A stretch of DNA of 20,106 nucleotides from Roseateles sp. (lineage in GTDB: Bacteria; Pseudomonadota; Gammaproteobacteria; Burkholderiales; Burkholderiaceae): NCBI GenBank assembly GCA_019232985.1, contig JAFAMW010000070.1, forward strand, positions 1 to 20,106, written 5' to 3'. Below, one piece after another: positions 3,584-16,915 of this stretch. Under the pieces are notes generated by a model. It was not told the origin of the DNA, searched no databases, and saw nothing but the letters and a program-made list of their open reading frames with translations. A program made the position numbers and the translations under genes. Position 1 is the first letter of the stretch; every line of letters begins with the position of its first letter.

Positions 3584-4999
3584 ATGTGGAGATCCAAGCA
3601 ATCGAGGCGGGCTCGCGGGCCTGCCGTCGCCCTGGCGGCGCTCGTGTCGGCCCTGATCCTGGCCGGCTGCGCCGTCGGGCCTGACTACCAGCGCCCCGAA
3701 CTGCCGGCTGCGCCGGCCCAGTTCAAGGAAGACGGCCCGTGGCGCCCGGCCGTGCCGGCCGCGGCCGACGCCAAGCAGCCCTGGTGGCAGGCCTTCGGCG
3801 ACGCCGACCTGAACGCGCTCGTGGTCCAGGCCAACGACGCAAACCAGACGCTGCGCCAGGCCGAGAGCCAGCTGCGCAACGCCCAGGCCCTGGTGCTGAA
3901 CGCGGGCGCGCAGCTCTGGCCCATCGTCGGCGTGACCGGCCAGATCGGGCGCGAGCGCCAGTTCTCGCCGAACACGCCGCTCGACACGCGCGGCGCGGCC
4001 ATCGCTGCGAGCTGGGAGCCCGACTTCTGGGGCCGCGCGCGGCGCGGCCTCGAGAGCGCGCAGGCCTCGGCGGCCGCGAGCGGCGACGACCTCGCCGCCG
4101 CGCGCCTGGCGGTGCAGGCCACGGTCGCGAGCAGCTATGTGCAGCTGCGCATCGACGACGCCATGCTCGACCTGCTCGACCGCACCGTCGATGCCTACCG
4201 CGCGTCGCTCGGGGTGGCGCAGGCGCAGGAGCGCGCGGGCGTCGCGACGCCGGCCGACGTCGCGCTCGCGCAGAGCACGCTCGCGTCGGCCGAGGCGCAG
4301 CGCGTCGACCTGCGGCTCGCGCGCGTCCAGGGCGAGCACGCGCTGGCCGTGCTGCTCGGCCGCCTGCCCAGCGACTTCTCTCTGCCGGCCAAGCCGCTCG
4401 CGCTGAGCCTGCCGGCGATCCCGCCGCTGCTGCCCTCGCGGCTGCTCGAGCGCCGCCCCGACGTCGCCGGCGCCGAGCAGCGCGTGCGCGCGGCGAACGC
4501 CCAGATCGGCGTGGCCAAGGCCGCCTGGTTCCCGAACCTGTCGCTGACGGCCAGCGACGGCGTGACCGCGCTCGGGAAATGGGCCGGCGCGCCGCTGCGC
4601 GTCTGGTCGCTCGGCGCGAGCGTGACGGCGCCGCTGTTCGACCCGGGCCAGCTGCGCAGCCTCAACGACCAGGCGCGCGCGGCCTACGACGGCGCGGTCG
4701 CGAGCTACCGCCAGAACGTGCTCGCGGCCTTCCAGGACGTCGAGGACCAGCTCGCGGCGCAGCGCGAGCTCGCGCGCGAGCGCGTGTTCGAGGACCAGGC
4801 GCTCGCCGCCGCCGTCGAGGCCGAGCGGGTGCTCGCGCGCCAGTACGAAGTCGGCAGCGCGAGCTACGTCTCTCTCGTCACCGCCCAGGCCAACAGCCTC
4901 GCGGCAGGCCGCACCGCCCTGCAGCTGCAGGGCCGCGAGTTGCTCGCCCATGTCGCGCTGATCCGCGCGCTCGGCGGCGGCTTCGGAACCGAACCATGA
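3584..4999 (+). CDS. NodT/OprM-family outer-membrane efflux lipoprotein
   Basis: This 471-residue outer-membrane factor forms the exit duct of a tripartite efflux pump. A signal peptide ends in the lipobox LAGC, with Cys at residue 29, followed by the family's AVGPDYQRPELP. Two repeats of the TolC-type fold follow: WWQAFGDADLNALVVQANDANQTLRQAESQLRNAQ early in repeat 1, and ERRPDVAGAEQRVRAANAQIGVAKAAWFPNLSL at the start of repeat 2. LFDPGQLRSLNDQARAAYDGAVASYRQNVLAAFQDVEDQLAA follows, all diagnostic of the NodT family. It is the first gene of the pump operon, overlapping the next gene by ATGA. The ATG at 3584 gives a proper signal peptide; no Shine-Dalgarno precedes it. The exported compound cannot be told from this protein. 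Confidence 0.93.
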   Translation: MWRSKQSRRARGPAVALAALVSALILAGCAVGPDYQRPELPAAPAQFKEDGPWRPAVPAAADAKQPWWQAFGDADLNALVVQANDANQTLRQAESQLRNAQALVLNAGAQLWPIVGVTGQIGRERQFSPNTPLDTRGAAIAASWEPDFWGRARRGLESAQASAAASGDDLAAARLAVQATVASSYVQLRIDDAMLDLLDRTVDAYRASLGVAQAQERAGVATPADVALAQSTLASAEAQRVDLRLARVQGEHALAVLLGRLPSDFSLPAKPLALSLPAIPPLLPSRLLERRPDVAGAEQRVRAANAQIGVAKAAWFPNLSLTASDGVTALGKWAGAPLRVWSLGASVTAPLFDPGQLRSLNDQARAAYDGAVASYRQNVLAAFQDVEDQLAAQRELARERVFEDQALAAAVEAERVLARQYEVGSASYVSLVTAQANSLAAGRTALQLQGRELLAHVALIRALGGGFGTEP

Positions 5000-6213
5000 A
5001 CGACCAGACCATGCAATCCACTTCCCTCCGCGACCGCCTTGCCGGCCGTGCCGGCTTCGGCCTCGCCGCGCTCGCCCTCGCCGTGCTCGTCCTGCGCATG
5101 AACCACAGCGCCGTCGCCGACGACGGCGCGGCCGCCGCCAAGGCCAAGGCCGCGCCGGTGCCGATCGTCAGCGCGGCGGTCCAGCAGCAGACCCTGCCGG
5201 TCGAGCGCACGGGCCTCGGCCAGGTGCTCGCCGGCGTCAGCGTGACGGTGCACACGCGCATCGACGGCGAGCTCGAGACCGTCAACTACCGCGAAGGCGA
5301 GGACGTGCGCAAGGGCGCGCTGCTCGCCCGCCTCGACGACCGCATGATCGTCGCCCAGCTCCAGCAGGCCGAGGCCGCGCAGCAGCGCGACGAGGCCCAG
5401 CTCGCGAACGCCCAGGTCGACCTGCGCCGCTTCCGCACCCTCGTGCCCGAGAAGGCCGCGACGCAGCAGCAGCTCGACACCCAGGAAGCGCTCGTGCGCC
5501 AGCTCCAGGCCGCGATCGCGAACGACGCGGCGGCCGTCGCCGCGGCGCGCGTCCAGCTCAGCTACACGCGCATCACGGCGCCGAGCGCCGGCCGCGCGGG
5601 CGCGCGCCTCGTCGACCCCGGCAATATCGTCCACGCCGCCGACCCGGGCGGCCTCGTCGTGATCAACGAGATCGACCCGATCCAGGTCCAGTTCACGCTG
5701 CCGCAGGAGGACTTCCAGGCCGTCAACGCCGCGATCAACGCGAGCAAGGGCCGCGCGCTGACCGTCCAGGCCTCGGACCGTGACACCCACGCCGTGCTCG
5801 CGACCGGCCAGCTCTCGCTGCTGAACAACCAGATCGACGTGAGCACCGGCACCGTGCTGCTCAAGGCGCGCTTCACGAACCCGCAGCACCGGCTGTGGCC
5901 GGGCCAGACCGTCGACGCGCGCCTCGTGCTCGGCACCCAGGCCGACACGCTGACCGTGCCGGTCGCGGCGATCCAGCGCACCCAGCAGGGCCTGATGGTC
6001 TACGTCGTCGACGCCGGCAACACCGTGCGCGTGCAGGCCGTCACGGTCGCGTCGAGCGACGACAAGATCGCGCGCATCAGCAAGGGCGTCAAGCTCGGCG
6101 AGCGCGTCGTCGTCGACGGCCAGTACCGCCTGTTCCCGGGCGCGAGCGTCCAGGAGCGCCCGCCCGAGACCGCGGCCAAGGGCGGCGCCGCGAGCGCGGC
6201 CGCGTCACGTTAA
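4996..6213 (+). CDS. RND efflux periplasmic adaptor, MdtA-like
   Basis: This 405-residue membrane-fusion protein links the RND permease to the NodT-type duct. The N-terminus carries one uncleaved hydrophobic segment (about residues 20-34, GFGLAALALAVLVL) and no lipobox. Then come the first lipoyl half (GELETVNYREGEDVRKGALLARLDD), an alpha-hairpin (residues about 120-190), the second lipoyl half (YTRITAPSAGRAGARLVDPGNIV), a beta-barrel region with VVINEIDPIQVQFTLPQEDF and RLWPGQTVDARL, and a membrane-proximal part with TVPVAAIQRTQQGLMVYVV. This matches MdtA/AcrA-type drug adaptors. It lacks the Met/His-rich segments of copper adaptors such as CusB. The start overlaps the nodT stop by ATGA, and the permease gene follows after 18 nt. 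Drug versus metal substrate is not proven. Confidence 0.92.
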   Translation: MNDQTMQSTSLRDRLAGRAGFGLAALALAVLVLRMNHSAVADDGAAAAKAKAAPVPIVSAAVQQQTLPVERTGLGQVLAGVSVTVHTRIDGELETVNYREGEDVRKGALLARLDDRMIVAQLQQAEAAQQRDEAQLANAQVDLRRFRTLVPEKAATQQQLDTQEALVRQLQAAIANDAAAVAAARVQLSYTRITAPSAGRAGARLVDPGNIVHAADPGGLVVINEIDPIQVQFTLPQEDFQAVNAAINASKGRALTVQASDRDTHAVLATGQLSLLNNQIDVSTGTVLLKARFTNPQHRLWPGQTVDARLVLGTQADTLTVPVAAIQRTQQGLMVYVVDAGNTVRVQAVTVASSDDKIARISKGVKLGERVVVDGQYRLFPGASVQERPPETAAKGGAASAAASR

Positions 6214-6231
6214 GCGCGGAGCAAATCAGCC

Positions 6232-9200
6232 GTGAGCATTTCCAGCAACTTCATCAAGCGCCCGATCGGCACGACGCTGCTCGCCGCGGCGCTGCTGTTG
6301 ATCGGCCTCGCGGCCTGGCCGCTGCTGCCGGTCGCGCCGCTGCCGCAGGTCGACTTCCCGACCGTCCAGGTCACCGGCCGCCTGCCCGGCGGCGCGCCCG
6401 AGACCATGGCCGCGACCGTGGCCCAGCCGCTCGAGCGCCAGTTCTCGCTGATCCCGGGCCTCGCCCAGATGACCTCGACGAGCTCACTGGGCCAGACGCA
6501 GATCACGCTGCAGTTCGACCTCGACCGCAATATCGACGGCGCCGCGCTCGACGTCCAGACCGCGATCAACGCGGCCACCGGCCAGCTGCCGAAGAGCCTG
6601 CCGAGCCCGCCGAGCTTCCGCAAGATCAACCCGGCCGACTCGCCGATCGTCATCTACGCGGTCCAGTCCGACGTGCTGCCGCTGACCCAGGTCGACGACT
6701 ACGCCGAGAACATCCTCGCCCAGCAGCTTTCGCGCATCAAGGGCGTTGGCCTCGTCAACGTGTTCGGCCAGCAGAAGCCCGCCGTGCGCGTGCAGGTCGA
6801 CCCGGCCAGGATCCGCGCGCTCGGCCTGTCGCTCGAAGACGTGCGCGGCGTGATCGCGAACACGACGGTCAGCAGCGCGACCGGCACGATCGACGGCGCG
6901 ACCCAGTCGTTCAACGTCCAGACCAACGACCAGCTGCTCCAGGCCGGCCCGTGGAACGACGCCGTGATCGCCTGGCGCAACGGCGCACCGATCCGCATCC
7001 GCGACATCGGCGTCGCGATCGACGGCCCCGAGAACACCAAGTACGCGGCCTGGGGCTTCCAGGGCGCGGGCGCGCCGGCCGGCTCGAACATCTCGGGCGG
7101 CCGCTCGATCATGCTCGCGATCACCAAGGAGCCCGGCGCGAACGTGATCGACACGGTCGACCGCGTCGAGGCCGCGCTGCCGCGCATCCGCGCGGCGGTG
7201 CCGCCGGCCGTCACGATCAACAAGCTGATCGACCGCACCCAGACGATCCGCGCGTCGGTCAAGGACGTCGAGTTCACGCTCGTGCTGTCGGTGCTGCTCG
7301 TCGTCGCCGTGATCTTCCTGTTCCTGCGCGACGTGATGGCGACGGTGATCCCGAGCGTGACCGTGCCGCTCGCGATCCTGGCGACGGCCGCCGTGATGTA
7401 CCTGCTCGGCTACAGCCTCGACAACCTGTCGCTGATGGCCCTGACCATCGCGGTCGGCTTCGTCGTCGACGACGCGATCGTGATGCTCGAGAACATCTAC
7501 CGCCACGTCGAGGCGGGTGTGCCGCGCTTCGAGGCCGCGCTCAAGGGCGCCGGCGAGGTCGGCTTCACGATCGTCTCGATCTCGGTCTCGCTCGTCGCGG
7601 TGTTCATCCCGCTGCTGCTGATGGGCGGCATCGTCGGCCGGCTGTTCCGCGAGTTCGCCGTCACCGTGACGCTGACGATCGCGGTCTCGGTCGTCGTCTC
7701 GCTGACGCTCACGCCGATGCTGTGCTCGAAGTTCCTGCGCAACGCGCACGACGTCAAGCATGGCAAGGTCCTCGAGTGGTTCGAGCGCGGCTTCGGAGCA
7801 ATGCAGTCGGGCTACAGGCGCGGCCTGACCCATGTGCTCAAGCACCCGTTCATCACCCTGATGAGCTTCTTCGCGACGCTCGCGCTGACGATCGGGCTGT
7901 TCGTCGTCATCCCCAAGGGCTTCTTCCCGCAGCAGGACACCGGCTTCGTGTTCGGCCAGGCCGTCGCCGGCCAGGACATCTCGAGCGGCGCGATGTTCGA
8001 GCATATGGAGCAGCTCGCCGACATCGTGCGCCAGGACCCCGACGTGTCGGCGTTCGGCGTGTCGATCGGCTCGTCGACCTTCAACCAGGGCAATATGTTC
8101 ATCGCCCTGCGCCCGCTCGACGAGGGCCGCAAGGTCACGGCCGACGAGGTCATCGCGCGGCTGCGTCCCAGGCTCGCGAGGGTCGCCGGCGTGACCCTGT
8201 ACCTGCAGGCCGGCCAGGACATCACGGTCGGCGGCCGGCCCTCGCGCACCCAGTACCAGTACACGCTGACCGACGTCGACCTCGACGAGCTCAACGACTG
8301 GGCGCCGCGCCTGACCGACCGGCTGTCGAAGCTGCCGGGCCTGACCGACGTGACTTCCGACCAGCTGAACTCGGCGCCGGTCGCGCGCATCGTGATCGAC
8401 CGCGAGCGCGCCGCGACCTACGGCCTGACGGTCGCGCAGATCGACGCGACGATCTACGACGCGATCGGCCAGCGCCAGGTCGCCCAGTACTTCACCCAGC
8501 TCAACAGCTACAACGTCGTGCTCGAGGTCCCGCCCGAGCTGCAGCGCGACACCCAGCTGTTCGACAAGCTCTACCTGAGCTCGCCGACGACCGGCCAGCA
8601 GGTGCCGCTGTCGAGCTTCGCGAAGTGGGATACCTCGCACACGGCCTACCTGGCGGTGAACCACCAGGGCCAGTTCCCGGCCGTGACGATCTCGTTCAAC
8701 CTCGCGCCCGGCCATGCGCTCGGCGACGCGGTCAAGGCGATCGAGAAGGCGCAGCTCCAGATGGGCGTGTCGGCGACGCTGTCGGGCAGCTTCCAGGGCA
8801 CGGCCCAGGCCTTCGGCGACTCGCTGCGCAGCCAGCCCTACCTGATCGCCGCGGCGCTGATCGCCGTGTACATCGTGCTGGGCCTGCTCTACGAGAGCTA
8901 CATCCACCCGCTGACGATTCTCTCGACCCTGCCCTCGGCCGGCGTCGGCGCGCTGCTGATCCTGATGGCCGGCGGCTTCGACTTCAGCGTGATCGCGCTG
9001 ATCGGCATCATCCTGCTGATCGGCATCGTCAAGAAGAACGGCATCATGATGGTCGACTTCGCGCTGCACGCCGAGCGCGACCGCGGCCTGGCGCCGCAGG
9101 ACGCGATCTTCGAGGCCTGCCTGCTGCGCTTCCGCCCGATCATGATGACGACGATGTGCGCGCTGCTCTCGGGCCTGCCGCTGATGCTCGGCCACGGCGC

Positions 9201-9384
9201 GGGCTCCGAGCTGCGCCGGCCGCTCGGCTTCGCGATGGTCGGCGGCCTGATCCTCTCCCAGATCCTGACGCTGTTCACGACCCCGGTGATCTACCTCTAT
9301 CTGGACCGCGCGCACCACTGGTACGTCAGGAGCCGGGCGGCGCGCGCGGCCCGCAAGGCAGCGAAGGTGGCCCCCCAATCATGA
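6232..9384 (+). CDS. RND multidrug efflux permease, MdtC/MdtB-like
   Basis: The 1050-residue inner-membrane proton antiporter is full length. The N-terminal helix and pore domain (PVAPLPQVDFPTVQVTGRLPGGAPETMA, LERQFSLIPGLAQMTSTSSLGQT) follow the MdtC/MuxC pattern closely. The TM4 motif FVVDDAIVMLENIYRH carries the proton-relay Asp pair at 413-414, and TM10 carries Lys 934-935 (IGIVKKNGIMMVDFA). SLTLTPMLCSKFL and the two large periplasmic loops are in place. The MdtB/C branch normally works as two different permeases encoded side by side; here there is one, so it presumably forms a homotrimer. The start is GTG at 6232, with GGAG about 12 nt upstream. The end overlaps the response-regulator gene by ATGA. 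The HAE (drug) rather than HME (metal) branch is inferred from overall sequence. Confidence 0.93.
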   Translation: MSISSNFIKRPIGTTLLAAALLLIGLAAWPLLPVAPLPQVDFPTVQVTGRLPGGAPETMAATVAQPLERQFSLIPGLAQMTSTSSLGQTQITLQFDLDRNIDGAALDVQTAINAATGQLPKSLPSPPSFRKINPADSPIVIYAVQSDVLPLTQVDDYAENILAQQLSRIKGVGLVNVFGQQKPAVRVQVDPARIRALGLSLEDVRGVIANTTVSSATGTIDGATQSFNVQTNDQLLQAGPWNDAVIAWRNGAPIRIRDIGVAIDGPENTKYAAWGFQGAGAPAGSNISGGRSIMLAITKEPGANVIDTVDRVEAALPRIRAAVPPAVTINKLIDRTQTIRASVKDVEFTLVLSVLLVVAVIFLFLRDVMATVIPSVTVPLAILATAAVMYLLGYSLDNLSLMALTIAVGFVVDDAIVMLENIYRHVEAGVPRFEAALKGAGEVGFTIVSISVSLVAVFIPLLLMGGIVGRLFREFAVTVTLTIAVSVVVSLTLTPMLCSKFLRNAHDVKHGKVLEWFERGFGAMQSGYRRGLTHVLKHPFITLMSFFATLALTIGLFVVIPKGFFPQQDTGFVFGQAVAGQDISSGAMFEHMEQLADIVRQDPDVSAFGVSIGSSTFNQGNMFIALRPLDEGRKVTADEVIARLRPRLARVAGVTLYLQAGQDITVGGRPSRTQYQYTLTDVDLDELNDWAPRLTDRLSKLPGLTDVTSDQLNSAPVARIVIDRERAATYGLTVAQIDATIYDAIGQRQVAQYFTQLNSYNVVLEVPPELQRDTQLFDKLYLSSPTTGQQVPLSSFAKWDTSHTAYLAVNHQGQFPAVTISFNLAPGHALGDAVKAIEKAQLQMGVSATLSGSFQGTAQAFGDSLRSQPYLIAAALIAVYIVLGLLYESYIHPLTILSTLPSAGVGALLILMAGGFDFSVIALIGIILLIGIVKKNGIMMVDFALHAERDRGLAPQDAIFEACLLRFRPIMMTTMCALLSGLPLMLGHGAGSELRRPLGFAMVGGLILSQILTLFTTPVIYLYLDRAHHWYVRSRAARAARKAAKVAPQS

Positions 9385-10049
9385 AAGTACTGATCGTCGA
9401 GGATGAACGCAAGGCGGCGGACTACCTCCGCCAGGGCCTGAGCGAGCAGGGCTGCAGCGTCGACATCGCCCACGACGGCGTCGACGGCCAGCACCTCGCG
9501 GTCCACCAGGACTACGACGTGATCGTGCTCGACGCGATGCTGCCGGGGCTCGACGGCTTCGAGCTGCTGCGCTCGCTGCGCGCGGTCAAGAACACGCCGG
9601 TCATCATGGTCACGGCGCGCGACGCGGTCGAGGACCGCGTGCGCGGCCTGCAGAACGGCGCCGACGACTACCTCGTCAAGCCCTTCTCCTTCGTCGAGCT
9701 CTACGCACGGCTCCAGGCGCTCACGCGCCGCAGCCGCGTGCTCGACGCGACGCTGCTGCGCGTCGGCACGCTGCAGATCGACCTGATCGCGCGGCGCGTC
9801 ACGCGCGAGGGCCAGCGCATCGACCTGACGGCCAAGGAGTTCGGCCTGCTCACGCTGCTCGCGCGGCGCCAGGGCGAGATCCTGTCGAAGACGACGATCG
9901 CCGAGCTCGTCTGGGACATGCATTTCGACGGCAGCACCAACGTGATCGAGGTCGCGATCAAGCGCCTGCGCAACAAGATCGACGCGCCGTTCGACCGGCC
10001 GCTGCTGCACACGGTGCGCGGCATGGGCTACCTGCTCGAGGAACGGTGA
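9381..10049 (+). CDS. OmpR-family response regulator, heavy-metal (CusR/CopR) type
   Basis: The 222-residue regulator has a receiver domain (residues 1-120) with acidic pocket E7-D8, phospho-acceptor D51 (VIVLDAMLPGLDGFELL), T78 (IMVTARD) and K100 (YLVKPFSF). The DNA-binding winged helix starts at about residue 127 (LRVGTLQIDLIARRVTREGQRIDLTAKEFGLLTLL). The ending ILSKTTIAELVWDMHFDGSTNVIEVAIKRLRNKID...HTVRGMGYLLE is the pattern of CusR, CopR, PcoR and SilR regulators. It is joined by ATGA overlaps to the permease before it and the kinase after it, so it is co-expressed with the pump. It should bind the TGAC/TTGTCA site at 3523-3549. The signal may be a metal ion, but the pump is drug-like. 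Confidence 0.93.
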   Translation: MKVLIVEDERKAADYLRQGLSEQGCSVDIAHDGVDGQHLAVHQDYDVIVLDAMLPGLDGFELLRSLRAVKNTPVIMVTARDAVEDRVRGLQNGADDYLVKPFSFVELYARLQALTRRSRVLDATLLRVGTLQIDLIARRVTREGQRIDLTAKEFGLLTLLARRQGEILSKTTIAELVWDMHFDGSTNVIEVAIKRLRNKIDAPFDRPLLHTVRGMGYLLEER

Positions 10050-11413
10050 AGCGCCCGGCCTCGATCGCCTGGCGTCTCGCGCTCGCGTTCAGCGTCGCGG
10101 CGCTGCTCGGCTTCGCCCTGAGCGCGGCGATGCTGCGTACGGCCTCGCAGAACGCGATCGAGCGCCTCCAGGCGCTGCAGGCGCACGACCGCATCGAGGA
10201 CCTGCGCTACCTGCTCGAACGCGGCCGCGCGACCGACCTCGCGCAGCGCGCGCGCGACAAGATCGAGACCCTGAGCCGCGACGGCCGCACGCGCTACTGG
10301 CTGTGGTGCGACACCGACCCGGCCTGGCGCTACGGCCCCGACGCCGAGGCGCTCGCGCAGCGCATCAAGGGCAGCGGCGACACGCCCGACATCGAGGAGA
10401 TCGACGGCCTGAGCATGGCGCTGCGCGCGGTCGCGCTGCCGGCCACGCCGGTGCGCCCGCCCGTCACGCTGATCGTCGGCGTGAACCGCGAGCCCTACCG
10501 CGCGTCGCTCGCGCGTTTCCAGGCGCGCCTGCTGCTGCTCAGCGTCGGCGGCGCGCTGCTCGTCGCGGTGCTCGGCTTCTGGGGCGTGCGCTGGAGCCTG
10601 CGGCCGATCGCGCGCATGGCCGCCGAGGCCCAGCGCGTCGGCCCCGACAACCGCGGCCAGCGCCTGCAGCTGCCCGCGCTGCCGGTCGAGCTCGCCGACC
10701 TCGGCCGCTCGTTCAACGCCGCCATCGACCGCCTCGACGCGGCCTATGCGCAGCTCGAGACCTTCAACGCCGACGTCGCCCACGAGCTGCGCACGCCGCT
10801 CGCGACCCTGATCGGCCAGACCCAGGTCGCGCTCTCGCGGCCGCGCCCGGCCGCCGAGATGGAGGAGCTGCTGCACTCCAACCTCGAGGAGCTCGAGCGC
10901 CTGCGCACGATCGTCGCCGACATGCTGTTCCTCGCGCGCGCCGAGCAGGGCGCGCGCGCCGAGCGCCGCGCCGACGCCTCGCTCGCGGCCGAGCTGCTCA
11001 AGACCGTCGAGTTCTTCGACGCGCTGCTCGAGGACGCGGGCGTGAGCGTCTACGTCGAGGGCGACGCGCGCGCGCGTGTGGAGGTCTCGCTGATCCACCG
11101 CGCGCTGTCCAACCTGCTGCACAACGCGATCCAGCATGCGCCGGCCGGCAGCCGCATCGAGGCGCGCGTCGAGCGCGGCGAGGGCTTCGTGCGCATCGCG
11201 CTGAGCAACCCGAGCGAGACGATCCCGCCCGAGCAGCTCGCGCGCCTGTTCGACCGCTTCTACCGCGTCGACGCGTCGCGGCCGAACAGCGACGCGAACC
11301 ACGGCCTGGGCCTCGCGATCGTCAAGGCGGTCGCGGCGATGCACGGCGGACGGGCCTTCGCGCGCAGCGAGCGGGGCCTGACCACCGTGGGGTTTTGCGT
11401 CTCCCTAGAATAG
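10046..11413 (+). CDS. Sensor histidine kinase, heavy-metal (CusS/CopS) type
   Basis: The 455-residue membrane kinase has TM1 at about residues 10-30, a periplasmic sensor of about 120 residues, TM2 at about 157-180 (LLLLSVGGALLVAVLGFWGV), then HAMP (SLRPIARMAAEAQRVG). The H-box is FNADVAHELRTPLATLIGQTQVALS with phosphorylated His at 246, the pattern of CusS/CopS kinases. The ATP-binding domain follows: LSNLLHNAIQHAP (N box), LFDRFYRVD (F box), NHGLGLAIVKAVAAMHGG (G2 box). The GTG start overlaps the regulator's stop (GTGA), with GAGGA at 10038-10042. The sensor contains a WLWCDTD segment but no Met- or His-rich cluster typical of copper sensing, so the ligand is open. The stop codon lies at the edge of the tldD promoter box. 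Confidence 0.92.
   Translation: MKRPASIAWRLALAFSVAALLGFALSAAMLRTASQNAIERLQALQAHDRIEDLRYLLERGRATDLAQRARDKIETLSRDGRTRYWLWCDTDPAWRYGPDAEALAQRIKGSGDTPDIEEIDGLSMALRAVALPATPVRPPVTLIVGVNREPYRASLARFQARLLLLSVGGALLVAVLGFWGVRWSLRPIARMAAEAQRVGPDNRGQRLQLPALPVELADLGRSFNAAIDRLDAAYAQLETFNADVAHELRTPLATLIGQTQVALSRPRPAAEMEELLHSNLEELERLRTIVADMLFLARAEQGARAERRADASLAAELLKTVEFFDALLEDAGVSVYVEGDARARVEVSLIHRALSNLLHNAIQHAPAGSRIEARVERGEGFVRIALSNPSETIPPEQLARLFDRFYRVDASRPNSDANHGLGLAIVKAVAAMHGGRAFARSERGLTTVGFCVSLE
11406..11411 (+). promoter_or_regulatory. -10-like box of tldD, inside the kinase gene end
   Basis: TAGAAT lies 6 nt before the tldD ATG (11418) and overlaps the last codons and stop of the kinase gene. There is no Shine-Dalgarno in front of tldD. 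It suggests a separate, leaderless tldD transcript in addition to any read-through from the efflux operon. Confidence 0.45.
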
Positions 11414-11417
11414 CCGG

Positions 11418-12881
11418 ATGATCTCCATCGAACCGACCCTGGCGCGGCTCGCGACCGCGAAGGCGCAGCTGCTCGACCCCTGCGGCCTCGACGAGGCGAA
11501 GCTCGCGCAGGCGCTGCGCGTGATCACCGAGCACCGCGTCGACGACGCCGACCTGTACTTCCAGCACACGCGCGCCGAGGGCTGGAGCCTCGAGGAGGGC
11601 ATCGTCAAGAGCGGCAGCTTCTCGATCGACCAGGGCGTCGGCGTGCGTGCGGTCGCCGGCGAGAAGACCGCCTTCGCCTACTCCGACGACATCACCGAGG
11701 CCGCGCTGCTCGACGCCGCGCGCACCGTGCGCGCGATCGCCGCGAGCGGCCAGAGCCGCCGCGTCAAGGTGCCGGCCGCGCCGCGCTTCGCGGGCAGCCG
11801 CGCGCTGTACGGCGTCGCCGACCCGATCGCGAGCCTCGACAGCACGGCCAAGGTCGCGCTGCTCGAGCGCGTCGAGAAGCTCGCGCGCGCGAAGGACCCG
11901 CGCGTCGTCCAGGTCATGGCCGGGCTCGCGGCCGAGCACGAGATCGTGCTCGTCGCGCGCGCCGACGGCCTGCTCGCGGCCGACGTGCGGCCGCTCGTGC
12001 GCCTGTCGGTGACCGTGATCGCCGAGAGCAACGGCCGGCGCGAGGTCGGCAGCGGCGGCGGCGGCGGGCGCTTCGGCCTCGCCTATTTCGACGACGCGAA
12101 GATCCGCAGCTACGTCGACCAGGCCGTCAATGCGGCGCTGACCAACCTCGAGTCGCGCCCGGCCCCGGCCGGCGAGATGACGGTCGTGCTCGGCCCGGGT
12201 TGGCCTGGCGTGCTGCTGCACGAGGCGATCGGCCACGGCCTCGAGGGCGACTTCAACCGCAAGGGCTCGAGCGCGTTCTCGGGCCGCGTCGGCGAGCGCG
12301 TCGCGGCCAGGGGCGTGACCGTGCTCGACGACGGCACGCTGCCCGACCGGCGCGGCTCGCTCAACGTCGACGACGAGGGCGCGCCGAGCCAGCGCAACGT
12401 GCTGATCGAGGACGGCATCCTCAAGGGCTATATCCAGGACGCGCTGAACGCACGCCTGATGGGTGTCGCGCCGACCGGCAACGGCCGCCGCGAGAGCTAC
12501 GCCCACGTGCCGATGCCGCGCATGACCAACACCTACATGCTCGGCGGCGACAAGGATCCCGCCGAGATCGTCGCGAGCATCAAGCGCGGCCTGTTCGCGA
12601 CCAACTTCGGTGGCGGCCAGGTCGACATCACGAGCGGCAAGTTCGTGTTCTCGGCGAGCGAGGCCTTCTGGGTCGAGGACGGCCGCATCCAGTACCCGGT
12701 CAAGGGGGCGACGCTGATCGGCAACGGCCCCGACGCGCTCACGCGCGTGTCCATGATCGGCAATGACATGGCGCTGGACACCGGCGTCGGCGTATGCGGC
12801 AAGGAAGGCCAGAGCGTGCCGGTCGGCGTCGGCCAGCCGACGCTGCGCATCGACGGACTCGTGGTCGGCGGCACGGCATGA
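11418..12881 (+). CDS. tldD: TldD metalloprotease subunit
   Basis: The 487-residue protein is close to E. coli TldD (about 480). TldD and its partner TldE (PmbA) form a zinc protease that degrades unfolded peptides, matures microcin B17 and removes CcdA antitoxin. The catalytic signature HEAIGH (HExxxH, His 268 and 273) lies in GVLLHEAIGHGLEGDFNRKGSSAFSGRVGERVA. Other family blocks are DLYFQHTRAEGWSLEEGIVKSGSFSIDQGVGVRAV near the N-terminus, and KGYIQDALNARLMGVAPTGNGRRESYAHVPMPRMTNTYML and QPTLRIDGLVVGGTA at the end. It starts 4 nt after the sensor kinase stop but has its own -10-like box. tldE is not in the window. The tldD-aroG pairing is common in Burkholderiales. Confidence 0.96.
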   Translation: MISIEPTLARLATAKAQLLDPCGLDEAKLAQALRVITEHRVDDADLYFQHTRAEGWSLEEGIVKSGSFSIDQGVGVRAVAGEKTAFAYSDDITEAALLDAARTVRAIAASGQSRRVKVPAAPRFAGSRALYGVADPIASLDSTAKVALLERVEKLARAKDPRVVQVMAGLAAEHEIVLVARADGLLAADVRPLVRLSVTVIAESNGRREVGSGGGGGRFGLAYFDDAKIRSYVDQAVNAALTNLESRPAPAGEMTVVLGPGWPGVLLHEAIGHGLEGDFNRKGSSAFSGRVGERVAARGVTVLDDGTLPDRRGSLNVDDEGAPSQRNVLIEDGILKGYIQDALNARLMGVAPTGNGRRESYAHVPMPRMTNTYMLGGDKDPAEIVASIKRGLFATNFGGGQVDITSGKFVFSASEAFWVEDGRIQYPVKGATLIGNGPDALTRVSMIGNDMALDTGVGVCGKEGQSVPVGVGQPTLRIDGLVVGGTA

Positions 12882-13002
12882 AGTGAGGCCCCTCGCCTGG
12901 TCCTGCCGCGCTGGACGCGGGCCGGCGCCGGCCCGGGCGGCACAGCTTCCTCGGCCGGCGAGGGCGGACTTGCCGGGGCGCGAACCCACGGGCGCGCATC
13001 CA
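12882..13002 (+). other. tldD-aroG spacer, upstream part with GC palindrome
   Basis: This stretch of about 120 nt shows no coding pattern. It contains a perfect 16-bp palindrome (GGGCCGGC/GCCGGCCC, 12919-12934) not followed by a T run, so it is not a classic intrinsic terminator. It could still weakly terminate or stabilise the tldD transcript 3' end. Confidence 0.4.
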
Positions 13003-13011
13003 TGCTAGATT
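13003..13011 (+). promoter_or_regulatory. Extended -10 promoter of the aroG leader
   Basis: TGCTAGATT is an extended -10 element (TG-n-TAGATT). No good -35 is found at the right distance, which extended -10 promoters tolerate. The hexamer ends 7 nt before the leader-peptide ATG at 13019, so the transcript should begin at or next to that AUG. Confidence 0.5.
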
Positions 13012-13018
13012 TGCGGCG

Positions 13019-13087
13019 ATGTCCCGCGCTGCGTTCTTCTTCTGCTTTTGGCACTTTCCCCGCTCCGGCGGTGGGAAAGAAGCCTGA
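13019..13087 (+). CDS. Phe-rich leader peptide of the aroG attenuator
   Basis: This 22-codon ORF (ATG 13019, TGA 13085-13087) has residues 6-13 reading FFFCFWHF: five Phe and one Trp among eight residues. The Phe codons are TTC TTC TTC at 13034-13042 and TTT at 13046 and 13055. The peptide ends PRSGGGKEA. Such runs are characteristic of attenuator leader peptides such as E. coli PheL/PheM. The ORF overlaps the first RNA hairpin (13054-13079) and lies upstream of a terminator in front of DAHP synthase, as the mechanism requires. No Shine-Dalgarno is seen; the transcript is probably leaderless. The peptide is likely only a sensor of charged tRNA-Phe. A trans role is possible but unsupported here. 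Confidence 0.85.
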   Translation: MSRAAFFFCFWHFPRSGGGKEA

Positions 13088-13130
13088 ACGCGCGCAGCCG
13101 CCAGACTTCCCTCCCCACGAAACCGCCGGA
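13054..13130 (+). promoter_or_regulatory. Attenuator segments 1:2 hairpin and 2:3 antiterminator
   Basis: Segment 1 CTTTCCC (13054-13060) pairs with GGGAAAG (13073-13079), and CGC/GCG pairs inside the loop; this is the protector hairpin. Segment 2 TCCGGCGGT (13064-13072) is exactly complementary over 9 bp to segment 3 ACCGCCGGA (13122-13130). Segment 3 is also the left arm of the terminator, so the two structures exclude each other. A ribosome stalled at Phe codons 13034-13048 would cover segment 1 and leave segment 2 free to pair with segment 3, allowing aroG transcription. With ample Phe-tRNA, or without translation, hairpin 1:2 forms and the terminator closes. Confidence 0.8.
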
Positions 13131-13158
13131 CCCGCAAAGTCCGGCGGTTTTGTTTTTG
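13120..13158 (+). terminator. Intrinsic terminator (attenuator segments 3:4) before aroG
   Basis: AAACCGCCGGAC (13120-13131) and GTCCGGCGGTTT (13139-13150) form a perfect 12-bp stem with a 7-nt loop (CCGCAAA). TGTTTTTG follows directly. It is the strongest intrinsic terminator in the window, and it lies 39 nt upstream of aroG rather than after a gene, which marks it as a regulatory attenuator. Confidence 0.92.
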
Positions 13159-13196
13159 TGCCCCGAGTTTTGTTTGATCCTCAACCGAGCCCTCCG

Positions 13197-14321
13197 ATGA
13201 ACGCCAAGTCCACCGAACCCAAGGCCGAGCGCTGGTACTCGCCGGCCGACAAGACCAGCGCGACCGACGACCAGCGCATCCGCGACGTCACGCCGCTGCC
13301 GCCGCCCGAGCACCTGATCCGCTTCTTCCCGATCGTCGGCACGCCGATGGAGCGCCTGATCACGGGCACGCGCCAGAAGATCCGCGACATCATGCAGGAA
13401 CGCGACGACCGCCTGCTCGTGATCATCGGCCCCTGCTCGATCCACGACCCGGCCGCCGCGCTCGACTACGCGCGCAAGCTGCTCGAGCAGCGCGAGCGCT
13501 ACGCCGACACGCTCGAGATCGTCATGCGCGTGTACTTCGAGAAGCCGCGCACGACGGTCGGCTGGAAGGGCTTGATCAACGACCCCTACCTCGACGAGAG
13601 CTATCGCATCGACGAGGGCCTGCGCATCGCGCGCCAGCTGCTGCTCGAGATCAACCGCCTGGGCCTGCCCGCGGGCAGCGAGTTTCTCGACGTGATCAGC
13701 CCGCAGTACATCGGCGACCTGATCTCCTGGGGCGCTATCGGCGCGCGCACGACCGAGAGCCAGGTCCACCGCGAGCTCGCCTCGGGCATCTCGGCGCCGA
13801 TCGGCTTCAAGAACGGCACCGACGGCAATATCAAGATCGCGACCGACGCGATCCAGGCCGCCGCGCGGCCGCACCATTTCCTGTCGGTCCACAAGAACGG
13901 CCAGGTCGCGATCGTCGAGACCAAGGGCAACAAGGACTGCCACGTGATCCTGCGCGGCGGCAAGGCGCCGAACTACGACGCCGCGAGCGTCGCCGCGGCC
14001 TGCGCCGACCTGACGGCGGCCAAGCTCGACGCGCGCCTGATGGTCGACTGCTCGCACGCGAACAGCAGCAAGAAGCACGAACGCCAGGTCGAGGTCGCGC
14101 GCGACATCGCCGCCCAGATGGCCGCCGGATCCAGGGCGATCTTCGGCGTGATGGTCGAGAGCCACCTGAAGGACGGGGCGCAGAAGTTCACGCCGGGCAA
14201 GGACAGCCCGGCCGCGCTCGAATACGGCAAGAGCATCACCGACGCCTGCCTCGGCTGGGACGACTCGATCGCGACGCTCGACATCCTGTCGGACGCCGTG
14301 AAGGCGCGCCGCAAGCGCTGA
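13197..14321 (+). CDS. aroG: 3-deoxy-7-phosphoheptulonate (DAHP) synthase, type I alpha (AroG family)
   Basis: The 374-residue cytoplasmic enzyme condenses phosphoenolpyruvate and erythrose 4-phosphate to DAHP, the first step of the shikimate pathway. Family blocks are complete and near-identical to E. coli AroG: DDRLLVIIGPCSIHDP, VMRVYFEKPRTTVGWKGLINDP, SPQYIGDLISWGAIGARTTES, HRELASGISAPIGFKNGTDG, DCHVILRGGKAPNYD, VDCSHANSSKKH and GVMVESHL. The N-terminus is about 20-25 residues longer than in E. coli AroG. The effector-pocket region resembles the Phe-sensitive isozyme, but the inhibitor cannot be fixed by eye. The Phe-rich leader and terminator upstream argue for control by phenylalanine supply. 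Start is the ATG at 13197 after a weak GAG-containing site. An in-frame ATG at 13002 would translate through the terminator and is rejected. Confidence 0.96.
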   Translation: MNAKSTEPKAERWYSPADKTSATDDQRIRDVTPLPPPEHLIRFFPIVGTPMERLITGTRQKIRDIMQERDDRLLVIIGPCSIHDPAAALDYARKLLEQRERYADTLEIVMRVYFEKPRTTVGWKGLINDPYLDESYRIDEGLRIARQLLLEINRLGLPAGSEFLDVISPQYIGDLISWGAIGARTTESQVHRELASGISAPIGFKNGTDGNIKIATDAIQAAARPHHFLSVHKNGQVAIVETKGNKDCHVILRGGKAPNYDAASVAAACADLTAAKLDARLMVDCSHANSSKKHERQVEVARDIAAQMAAGSRAIFGVMVESHLKDGAQKFTPGKDSPAALEYGKSITDACLGWDDSIATLDILSDAVKARRKR

Positions 14322-15022: not shown

Positions 15023-16915
15023 ATGACGACGAAGCAAACCCATTCCTTCCAGGCCGAGGTTCAGCAGATCCTGCACCTCGTCACGCATTCGCTGTACTCC
15101 AACAAGGAGATCTTCCTGCGCGAGCTCGTCTCGAACGCGTCCGACGCGTGCGACAAGCTGCGCTTCGAGGCGCTCGACCATCCGCAGTTCCTCGAGGACG
15201 CGCCGAACCTCGAGGTGCGCGTGAGCTTCGACGAGGCCGCGCGCACGCTGACCATCAGCGACAACGGCGTCGGCATGAGCGCCGAGGAGGCGATCGCCCA
15301 CCTCGGCACGATCGCCAAGAGCGGCACGCGTGAATTCATGGCCAGGCTCGACGGCGACCAGAAAAAGGACGCCGCGCTGATCGGCCAGTTCGGCGTCGGC
15401 TTCTACTCGGGCTTCATCGTCGCCGACAAGATCGTCGTCGAGTCGCGCCGCGCCGGCCTGCCGGCCGAGCAGGGCGTGCGCTGGATCAGCGCGGGCACCG
15501 GCGACTTCGAGGTCGAGACCATCGCCAAGCCCGGCCGCGGCACCGACGTGATCCTGCACCTGCGCGAGGGCGAGGACGAGTTCTTCAAGACCTGGCGCCT
15601 GAAGTCGGTCATCTCGAAGTACTCCGACCATATCTCGCTGCCGATCCTGATGCGCAAGGAGGAATGGATCGCCGAGGAGGCCAAACAGGTTCTCAAGGAC
15701 GAGTGGGAGCCGGTCAACAAGGCCTCGGCGCTGTGGTCGCGCAACAAGAACGAGGTCACTGCCGAGCAGTACGAGGACTTCTACAAGCAGATCAGCTACG
15801 ACACCGAGGCGCCGCTCGCCTACACGCACAACCGCGTCGAGGGCCGCAGCGAGTACACCCAGCTGCTCTACATCCCGAAGAAGGCGCCGTTCGACCTGTG
15901 GAACCGCGACAAGCGCGGCGGCGTCAAGCTCTACGTCAAGCGCGTCTTCATCATGGACGACGCCGAGGCGCTGATGCCCGTGTACCTGCGCTTCGTCAAG
16001 GGCGTGATCGACTCGGCCGACCTGCCGCTGAACGTCTCGCGCGAACTGCTCCAGGAGAGCCGCGACGTCAAGGCGATCCGCGAGGGCTCGACCAAGCGCG
16101 TGCTCTCGATGCTCGAGGGCCTCGCCGACAGCGAGGACGCGGCCGAGCGCCAGAAATACGCGGACTTCTGGAAGGACTTCGGCCAGGTGCTCAAGGAGGG
16201 CGTCGGCGAGGACCACGCGAACCAGGAGCGCCTCGCCAAGCTGCTGCGCTTCGCGTCGACGACGCACGACGAGGGCGTGAGCCTCGCCGACTACGTCGCG
16301 CGCATGAAGCAAGGCCAGGAGACGATCTACTACATCGCGGCCGACTCGCTCGCGGCCGCGAAGAACAGCCCGCAGCTCGAGATCTTCCGCAAGAAGGGCA
16401 TCGAGGTGCTGCTGTTCGTCGACCGCGTCGACGAGTGGATGCTCGCCCACCTTTATGAATTCGAGGGCAAGTCGCTGCAGTCGGTGGCGAAGGGCGCCGT
16501 CGACCTCGGCCGCCTCGAGGACGAGGCCGAGAAGCAGGCGGCCGAGCAGGTCGCCGAGCAGTTCAAGCCGCTCGTCGAGCGCCTCAAGACGGCGCTCGCC
16601 GCGCGCGCGAAGGAGGTCCGCGTGACGACGCGCCTGGTCGACTCGCCGGCCTGCATCGTCGTCGACGAGGGCGACATGAGCGGCCACCTCGCGCGCCTGC
16701 TCAAGCAGGCCGGCCAGCCCGCCGCGACGAGCCTGCCGACGCTCGAGATCAACCCCGCGCATGGCCTCGTGCGCAAGCTCGGCGACGCGACGGCCGACGC
16801 GCGCTTCGACGACCTGGCGCAGGTGCTGTTCGACCAGGCCGTGCTCGCCGAGGGCGGCCAGCTCGAGGACCCGGCCGCCTACGTGCGCCGCGTCAACGCG
16901 CTGCTGACGGCCTGA
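15023..16915 (+). CDS. htpG: Molecular chaperone HtpG (Hsp90)
   Basis: The 630-residue protein is the expected length for bacterial Hsp90, an ATP-driven cytosolic dimer that helps client proteins fold with DnaK. The N-terminal GHKL ATPase domain has all its motifs: [24 protein letters not shown] (N box), [10 protein letters not shown] (G1), [17 protein letters not shown] (G2 lid region) and RGTDVILHL. The middle domain shows [33 protein letters not shown] and [19 protein letters not shown] with the conserved catalytic-loop Arg. The C-terminal domain holds [11 protein letters not shown] and [13 protein letters not shown]. No part is missing. No clear Shine-Dalgarno precedes the ATG. It converges on srkA with a 19-nt gap and no visible terminator. 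Confidence 0.98.

Follow-up and report, generated by a model that had tools for sequence, protein, structure and literature searches.

A probable ribosome-mediated transcription attenuator of aroG in Burkholderiales, with a leader message predicted to be leaderless

Here, we present evidence for RNA-based control of aroG, the gene for DAHP synthase, in the order Burkholderiales. DAHP synthase catalyzes the first step in the synthesis of aromatic amino acids. In the window (the whole 20,106-nucleotide stretch of Roseateles sp. DNA that was analyzed), positions 13003-13160 are very probably a ribosome-mediated transcription attenuator of aroG, with a start of transcription inferred at the leader AUG. 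Four lines of evidence support the attenuator by sequence comparison: a leader open reading frame (ORF) under selection, alternative 2:3 and 3:4 stems, an order-wide link to aroG, and the spacing of a promoter-like element.

In the mechanism that we propose, transcription would start no more than about 2 nt from the leader AUG, so that the ribosome would load on a bare 5′ AUG. When charged tRNA-Phe or tRNA-Trp (in most relatives tRNA-Tyr too) is short, the ribosome would stall at codons 6 to 11, leaving segment 2 free to pair with segment 3; the terminator then could not form and aroG would be transcribed. Translation that reaches the stop codon would place the ribosome over segment 2, segments 3 and 4 would pair, and transcription would end near 13158. 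Where transcription starts, that translation is leaderless, and how the element responds to each amino acid are the inferred parts of this scheme. We also lean, by a small degree, toward a broader reading: that Burkholderiales have a leaderless attenuation module, in which an extended -10 element is fused to the leader AUG of both aroG and leuA, and that the leader at aroG is a three-input sensor of tRNA-Phe, tRNA-Tyr, and tRNA-Trp.

The tldD-aroG locus

The attenuator (13003-13160) is housed in the 314-nt spacer between tldD (stop at 12881) and aroG (ATG at 13197), and all of the features described here are on the plus strand. The regulated gene (13197-14321) encodes a type I DAHP synthase of 374 amino acids, recognized from its ORF translation and its match to the TIGR00034 (aroFGH) profile (527 bits; cut-off 173). 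We use “aroG” as a working name, because the protein narrowly misses the cut-off of the NCBI AroG equivalog model (539.8 bits; cut-off 568) and passes that of the Trp-sensitive AroH subfamily model (500.5 bits; cut-off 463). The aroG frame is open in the 5′ direction as far as an ATG at 13002 (13002-14321), spanning the attenuator, and gene finders may therefore call its start too early. The region 5′ of tldD (3739-11413) contains an RND efflux adaptor and a heavy-metal–type sensor kinase, and htpG (15023-16915) lies 3′ of aroG.

Conservation across Burkholderiales

Scanning genome contigs with the aroG protein yielded at least 593 relatives, and the best 80 loci among them were taken forward. 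An aromatic-rich leader ORF is present in 74 of the 81 aroG loci made up of the window and these best 80 of at least 593 (ORFs were filtered by F/Y/W density; an earlier filter used F density). In the same set, the leader is followed by a terminator in 73 of 74 cases, the exception being L050. Seven loci are without a leader (L014, L059, L061, L067, L075, L079, and L078). L014 is at a contig end, with no upstream sequence, and L078 is a Cupriavidus chromosome 2 copy. The other five are from Polynucleobacter or similar organisms and have no leader ORF; in L059 and L075, aroG sits close behind the upstream gene. Two metagenome-assembled genomes labelled Polynucleobacter (L022 and L045) have the leader ORF.

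A covariance model, R1, was built from the 73 leader-plus-terminator loci found through aroG. A search with R1, which makes no use of aroG itself, covered 399 Burkholderiales genomes and at E <=0.01 gave 100 matches, spread over 99 of them. When all 100 were fetched, 99 proved to be directly 5′ of aroG (L187 was without aroG), and the identity of their aroG proteins to that of the window goes down to about 58%. A second model, R2, was built with the promoter left out from 110 diverse sequences (alignment A2), sampled by taking every third locus through L100, the window, and all later loci except L129, L136, L180, and L185. At E <2e-9, R2 gave 104 matches, and 103 of the 399 genomes had at least one. 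These are the 99 of R1, many of which had gone into building R2, plus five additional places, likewise 5′ of aroG; the remaining 296 genomes gave no strong match. R2 matched 204 of 399 genomes at E <=0.01, a figure that we do not use as a prevalence because many of the matches listed beyond the top 104 cover the terminator only. Ten chosen weaker places comprised one aroG, two leuA (by eye), five genes for an unknown protein, and two with nothing recognizable downstream. Among 369 genomes across the whole class, seven had a match at E <1e-12 (the next best was 8e-6); three of these overlap with the order sample, and in the four others, whose order is not given, the match is also 5′ of aroG. 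These searches point to an element that is common in Burkholderiales and, at this sensitivity, rare outside the order if present at all.

The preliminary description of this DNA, made from the window alone, had suggested comparing orthologous spacers, and had named loss of the Phe codons or of the complementarity among segments 2, 3, and 4 as evidence against an attenuator; the comparison found the opposite, with both conserved. Rfam release 15 gave no matches in the window at the gathering cut-off, and the eight sub-threshold window matches at E <=5 include none to a leader family. One genome (G306) carries two attenuated aroG copies (L142 and L183), each with its own leader and terminator.

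The leader ORF and its control codons

The leader ORF, MSRAAFFFCFWHFPRSGGGKEA (13019-13087 including the stop), has 22 codons and a TGA stop. It appears in the ORF listing as previously described, with the aromatic run FFFCFWHF at 13034-13057, and recurs in the comparison. A ribosome that stalls within FFFCFW should keep segment 2 accessible. Among 2000 dinucleotide shuffles of the 314-nt spacer, none gave a comparably aromatic-dense ORF (10-45 codons, with 6 aromatic residues within 8 codons). Upstream of segment 2, pN/pS is 0.163, with 527 synonymous versus 337 non-synonymous single-change codon differences in 237 pairs of similar leaders (uncorrected, pairs not independent). This codon pattern indicates that the leader ORF is under protein-level selection. 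The leader peptides matched no family in NCBIfam or Pfam. In the aroG-found set, a typical leader ends C-terminally in YFWFS...GGREA. The distance from the start of the GGCGG motif to the leader stop has a median of 21 nt (5-95%: 10-28) and is 18 nt in the window; the stop codon is thus positioned such that a ribosome there would cover segment 2.

Which amino acids are sensed should depend on the codons at which a stalled ribosome leaves segment 2 free. We defined this control zone as the codons at least 9 nt 5′ of segment 2, using a generally accepted ribosome footprint, and analyzed it in 167 leaders scored by a rule separate from that of the segment analysis below. Phe codons occur in all 167 control zones, Tyr codons in 153, Trp codons in 108, and all three in 103, and Burkholderiales leaders have a mean of 6.3 aromatic codons per control zone. 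The window's zone reads FFFFW, that is, four Phe, one Trp, and no Tyr. Trp is found in 76 of 83 control zones for the window and its close relatives, and in 32 of 84 for the remaining leaders. The description of the element as a “Phe-codon” attenuator thus stands as far as the attenuator is concerned and fails as to Phe alone: The codon counts support a leader that is aromatic in general (Phe, Tyr, and Trp). We consider it unlikely that the leader senses Phe only, its Tyr and Trp codons being there by chance or for codon context. The universal presence of Phe, the lack of Tyr in the window, and the Corynebacterium AroR leader, described as responding to Phe limitation (in the portion of PMC11802643 available), would all fit such a sensor, but the frequency of Tyr and Trp across the order, and of Trp in the close relatives above all, argues against it.

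A promoter-like element next to the leader ATG

An extended -10 promoter-like element, TGC-TAGATT (13003-13011), is separated from the leader ATG by a 7-nt gap. The element, which is absent from the preliminary description, was recognized by sequence and comparison; a simple sigma-70 scan that requires a -35 hexamer found no promoter here. Of the 73 aroG-found loci (from the best 80 of at least 593, plus the window), 72 have a TGn-TANNNT that ends 5-9 nt 5′ of the leader ATG. These 73 were chosen without using the promoter, and for two of them (L056 and L068) the start was reassigned to an inner ATG once the spacing had been seen. In the larger set of 172 leaders, where one further start (L095) was likewise moved, TANNNT occurs 5-9 nt 5′ of the ATG in 126, against about 5 expected from other positions; its L089-L188 subset (54 of 99 with TANNNT) is biased because R1, the model used to find it, includes the promoter. 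Among the 120 leaders with a gap of 6-8 nt, the base at -1 is C or T in 110 and TG precedes the hexamer in 105.

A -10 element so close to an ATG should place the start site at or beside the AUG. With the element 5-9 nt before the leader ATG, the leader mRNA is therefore predicted to be leaderless, its 5′ end falling at or next to the first A of the ORF (13019). A Shine-Dalgarno (SD) core of at least 4 nt precedes 6 of the 126 leaders with an adjacent -10 element and 2 of the 46 without one, and an SD core precedes 28 of 34 aroG starts in a hand-made list covering a subset of the loci. The missing SD core proves little alone, because it is equally missing from leaders without an adjacent -10. 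Leaderlessness is not universal, since those 46 of 172 leaders have no TANNNT 5-9 nt upstream; five of them have a TTGAAT- or TATCAAT-like sequence at the same distance, and the Cupriavidus leader (L169) and similar ones may, as judged by eye, start further upstream.

These leaders also bear on an alternative, in which the attenuator would lie on a transcript begun further upstream and the adjacent -10 would be coincidental. The 46 leaders without TANNNT, themselves mostly without an SD core, and the absence from the window of a sigma-70 match with a -35 are compatible with this idea. Nevertheless, coincidence would hardly produce the sharp 6-8 nt peak with its preceding TG and its C or T at -1, and we regard an upstream start as improbable in general.

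Mutually exclusive RNA structures

The terminator consists of segment 3, its left arm (13118-13131), and segment 4, its right arm (13139-13152), followed by a T-rich tail (13153-13160) and then, as had been noted, by the aroG ATG at 13197. A terminator of 12 bp had been placed at 13120-13150; its existence is upheld by the terminator search and its length is revised to 14 pairs (13118-13131/13139-13152), followed by TTTTTGTG. Segment 2, TCCGGCGGT (13064-13072), is in the last third of the leader ORF, and its 9-nt identity to the right arm of the terminator makes segment 3 its alternative partner. This identity can be read directly from the sequence, as can the 1:2 (pause) hairpin at 13054-13079, which folds at -12.4 kcal/mol within 13052-13090 and has its pairing examined on alignment A1; both agree with the preliminary description.

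The fold of the 161-nt region is more stable than that of any of 200 shuffles (z = -4.5), and that of 13030-13112 alone is unremarkable (z = -0.7). When segment 2 is free and segment 4 is absent, the antiterminator is the minimum free energy structure in 162 of 167 modelled leaders, in keeping with the stalling geometry first described, in which a ribosome stalled upstream frees segment 2. With a ribosome placed on the stop codon, the terminator folds in all 167, which is not an independent result, since having a terminator was part of how the sets were selected.

For segment analysis, 172 leaders were reduced to 167 by removing two without a terminator (L135 and L154) and three without a CCGCC/GGCGG core. 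Lineages differ in whether C or T precedes GGCGG, and coding segment 2 and non-coding segment 4 agree in this base. Of the 167 sequences, 118 have a single C or T here; for these, the segment 2 versus segment 4 table is 67/10/8/33 (p = 3e-13, uncorrected for relatedness, the related sequences not being independent); within L089-L188, it is 19, 9, 6, 32 (p = 3e-5). GGCGG is missing from the leader in 17 of 167. At the corresponding alignment positions, pair 86-185 of the 2:3 stem is UA in 37 sequences and CG in 36, and is unpaired in 34 of 108 scored sequences, while pair 185-202 of the 3:4 stem is AU in 53 and GC in 47.

On A2, 90.0% of cells in the 2:3 stem are paired (87.5% when shuffled), with a covariation score of 0.102 (shuffled, 0.069); for the 3:4 stem, the values are 95.5% (92.5%) and 0.150 (0.094). 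For both stems, none of 500 shuffles equalled the observed cells paired, the double-change cells, or the covariation score. The counts of covarying pairs and pair types were no better than those of shuffles (reached by 303 and 161 of 500 for 2:3, and by 65 and 343 of 500 for 3:4), since most of the signal comes from a single position; there is little variation in the terminator core, so that the covariation depends on one main position. Displacing the partner by 1-3 columns brought the paired share below 62% in both stems, and the 2:3 pairing was absent from the structures supplied to R1 and R2. Thus, a mutually exclusive antiterminator is backed by covariation, mainly at one covarying position.

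In the close family (A1), 84.9% of cells in the 1:2 hairpin are paired versus 80.6% in shuffles, a value that 0 of 500 shuffles matched. Three of five measures are supportive, and the pair and type counts were reached by 90 and 84 of 500 shuffles. Across the order, the consensus fold retained only three pairs, and we therefore do not claim the 1:2 hairpin order-wide. The compensatory changes suggested for all three stems are consequently found in 2:3 and 3:4, mainly at one position, and for 1:2 in the close family and hardly across the order.

Two further alternatives can be weighed against this structural evidence. The terminated short RNA or peptide might also act in trans, like rnTrpL/peTrpL of Sinorhizobium meliloti, whose layout of leaderless ORF and terminator is similar in the portion of PMC7298713 available, and the peptide C-terminus is conserved in the close family; however, segments 1 and 2 account for the C-terminal codons, and we give a trans function little credence. 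A plain intrinsic terminator of tldD beside a chance short ORF, with no regulation of aroG, would suit a stem that is 3′ of tldD as well as 5′ of aroG, but is highly implausible given that the tldD stop and the stem are about 240 nt apart and have the promoter-like element between them, that ORF, segment 2, and aroG link are conserved even at about 60% aroG protein identity, and that segment 2 covaries with segments 3 and 4, which largely contradicts it.

aroG copies without the attenuator

Two aroG copies were found in 10 of 18 genomes searched. None of 14 other or sole copies examined (10 second and 4 sole) has a GGCGG-type terminator upstream, the only type sought; two of them (L284 and L292) have an ORF with 5 aromatic residues in 9, one from a GTG start. 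On a tree of 49 AroG proteins, 35 of them attenuated, the attenuation label needs 5 changes, compared with a shuffled mean of 12.4. This fits an old attenuator that may have been lost from later aroG copies, a reading limited by the two long branches and 10 weak forks of the tree.

A promoter-ATG arrangement shared with leuA

Searching 15 genomes for the pattern GTGCTACATT-N6-8-ATG gave 13 matches, which fall in 11 of the genomes, and the reversed-pattern control gave 0. All 13 matches open a leader ORF with a terminator, 10 before aroG and 3 before leuA. The 10 aroG matches are expected, because the 15 genomes were chosen for carrying the aroG element. The three leuA matches (L265, L266, and L275) have Leu-rich leaders plus a terminator, and their leuA products score above the TIGR00973 cut-off. 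Leaders of this type (e.g., MNRISLSLLLGVRHGQVW) have a -10-like element 6-8 nt 5′ of the ATG, and two other leuA leaders (L257 and L260) look alike by eye. The leuA leaders are predicted to be a second leaderless attenuator in Burkholderiales.

Five other loci (L254, L255, L256, L258, and L259) have an aromatic leader of the type MITFSAVFNAYFYWYRSSRRLQGASLD and a GCCGCCG terminator before an unknown protein. In most of them, TTGACA and a -10-like element just 5′ of the ATG can be seen by eye. The one downstream protein scanned had no Pfam match.

Relation to known attenuators

The element had been likened to attenuators of the PheL/TrpL type. The likeness holds for leader ORF, antiterminator, and terminator, and breaks down at the start of the leader, which is predicted to be leaderless, unlike Escherichia coli pheL and trpL, whose leaders are translated from an SD site. 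The E. coli pheL, pheST, and trpL attenuators, as described in PMC11802643, share with it a leader ORF with cognate codons and a competing antiterminator and terminator; they control pheA, pheST, and trp, whereas the Burkholderiales element precedes aroG. In the available parts of PMC11802643 and PMC4046766, the Corynebacterium glutamicum AroR leader (Phe-Tyr-Phe) attenuates aroF, which encodes a DAHP synthase. By that description, AroR/aroF resembles our element as a DAHP synthase gene attenuated by an aromatic leader; it differs in being actinobacterial and in that those parts mention no Trp codon.

Leader messages that begin at the leader-ORF AUG also have precedents. The portion of PMC7298713 available describes one for S. 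meliloti trpL (rnTrpL/peTrpL), which resembles the start predicted here. That system is a Trp leader before trpE(G) in an alphaproteobacterium and has a reported trans function. Leaderless leader peptides are likewise described in attenuators of leuA, trpE, and ilv in Streptomyces (PMC8079986) and Corynebacterium, including C. diphtheriae (PMC5784534); these belong to a different phylum, and the available parts of both papers describe no promoter-ATG module in common with a DAHP synthase attenuator.

For proteobacteria, the available text of PMC11802643 and PMC5343134 places the aromatic entry step of E. coli under TyrR and TrpR, and the regulon survey in the latter assigns aroG to TyrR or TrpR in gammaproteobacteria. 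The words DAHP, heptonate, and aro are absent from the main text, as available, of a survey of premature terminators (PMC2965389). In searches of an open-access library and Rfam, we recognized no Burkholderiales aroG attenuator, aromatic trio, or promoter-AUG module shared with leuA. Each element is therefore already known; their combination at Burkholderiales aroG was not found in that library, and its novelty is unproven.

If the proposed mechanism is true, the aromatic entry step is under RNA control in a large order of bacteria from soil, plants, and water, through an RNA element that Rfam 15 does not recognize in the window. Attenuation requires the ribosome to keep up with RNA polymerase, and the predicted leaderless start would offer a natural setting in which to test how this is achieved on leaderless mRNA; the leader could provide a simple genetic handle on aroG expression for the production of aromatic compounds. 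A three-input leader at aroG would let a shortage of any one of the aromatic amino acids set the common step.
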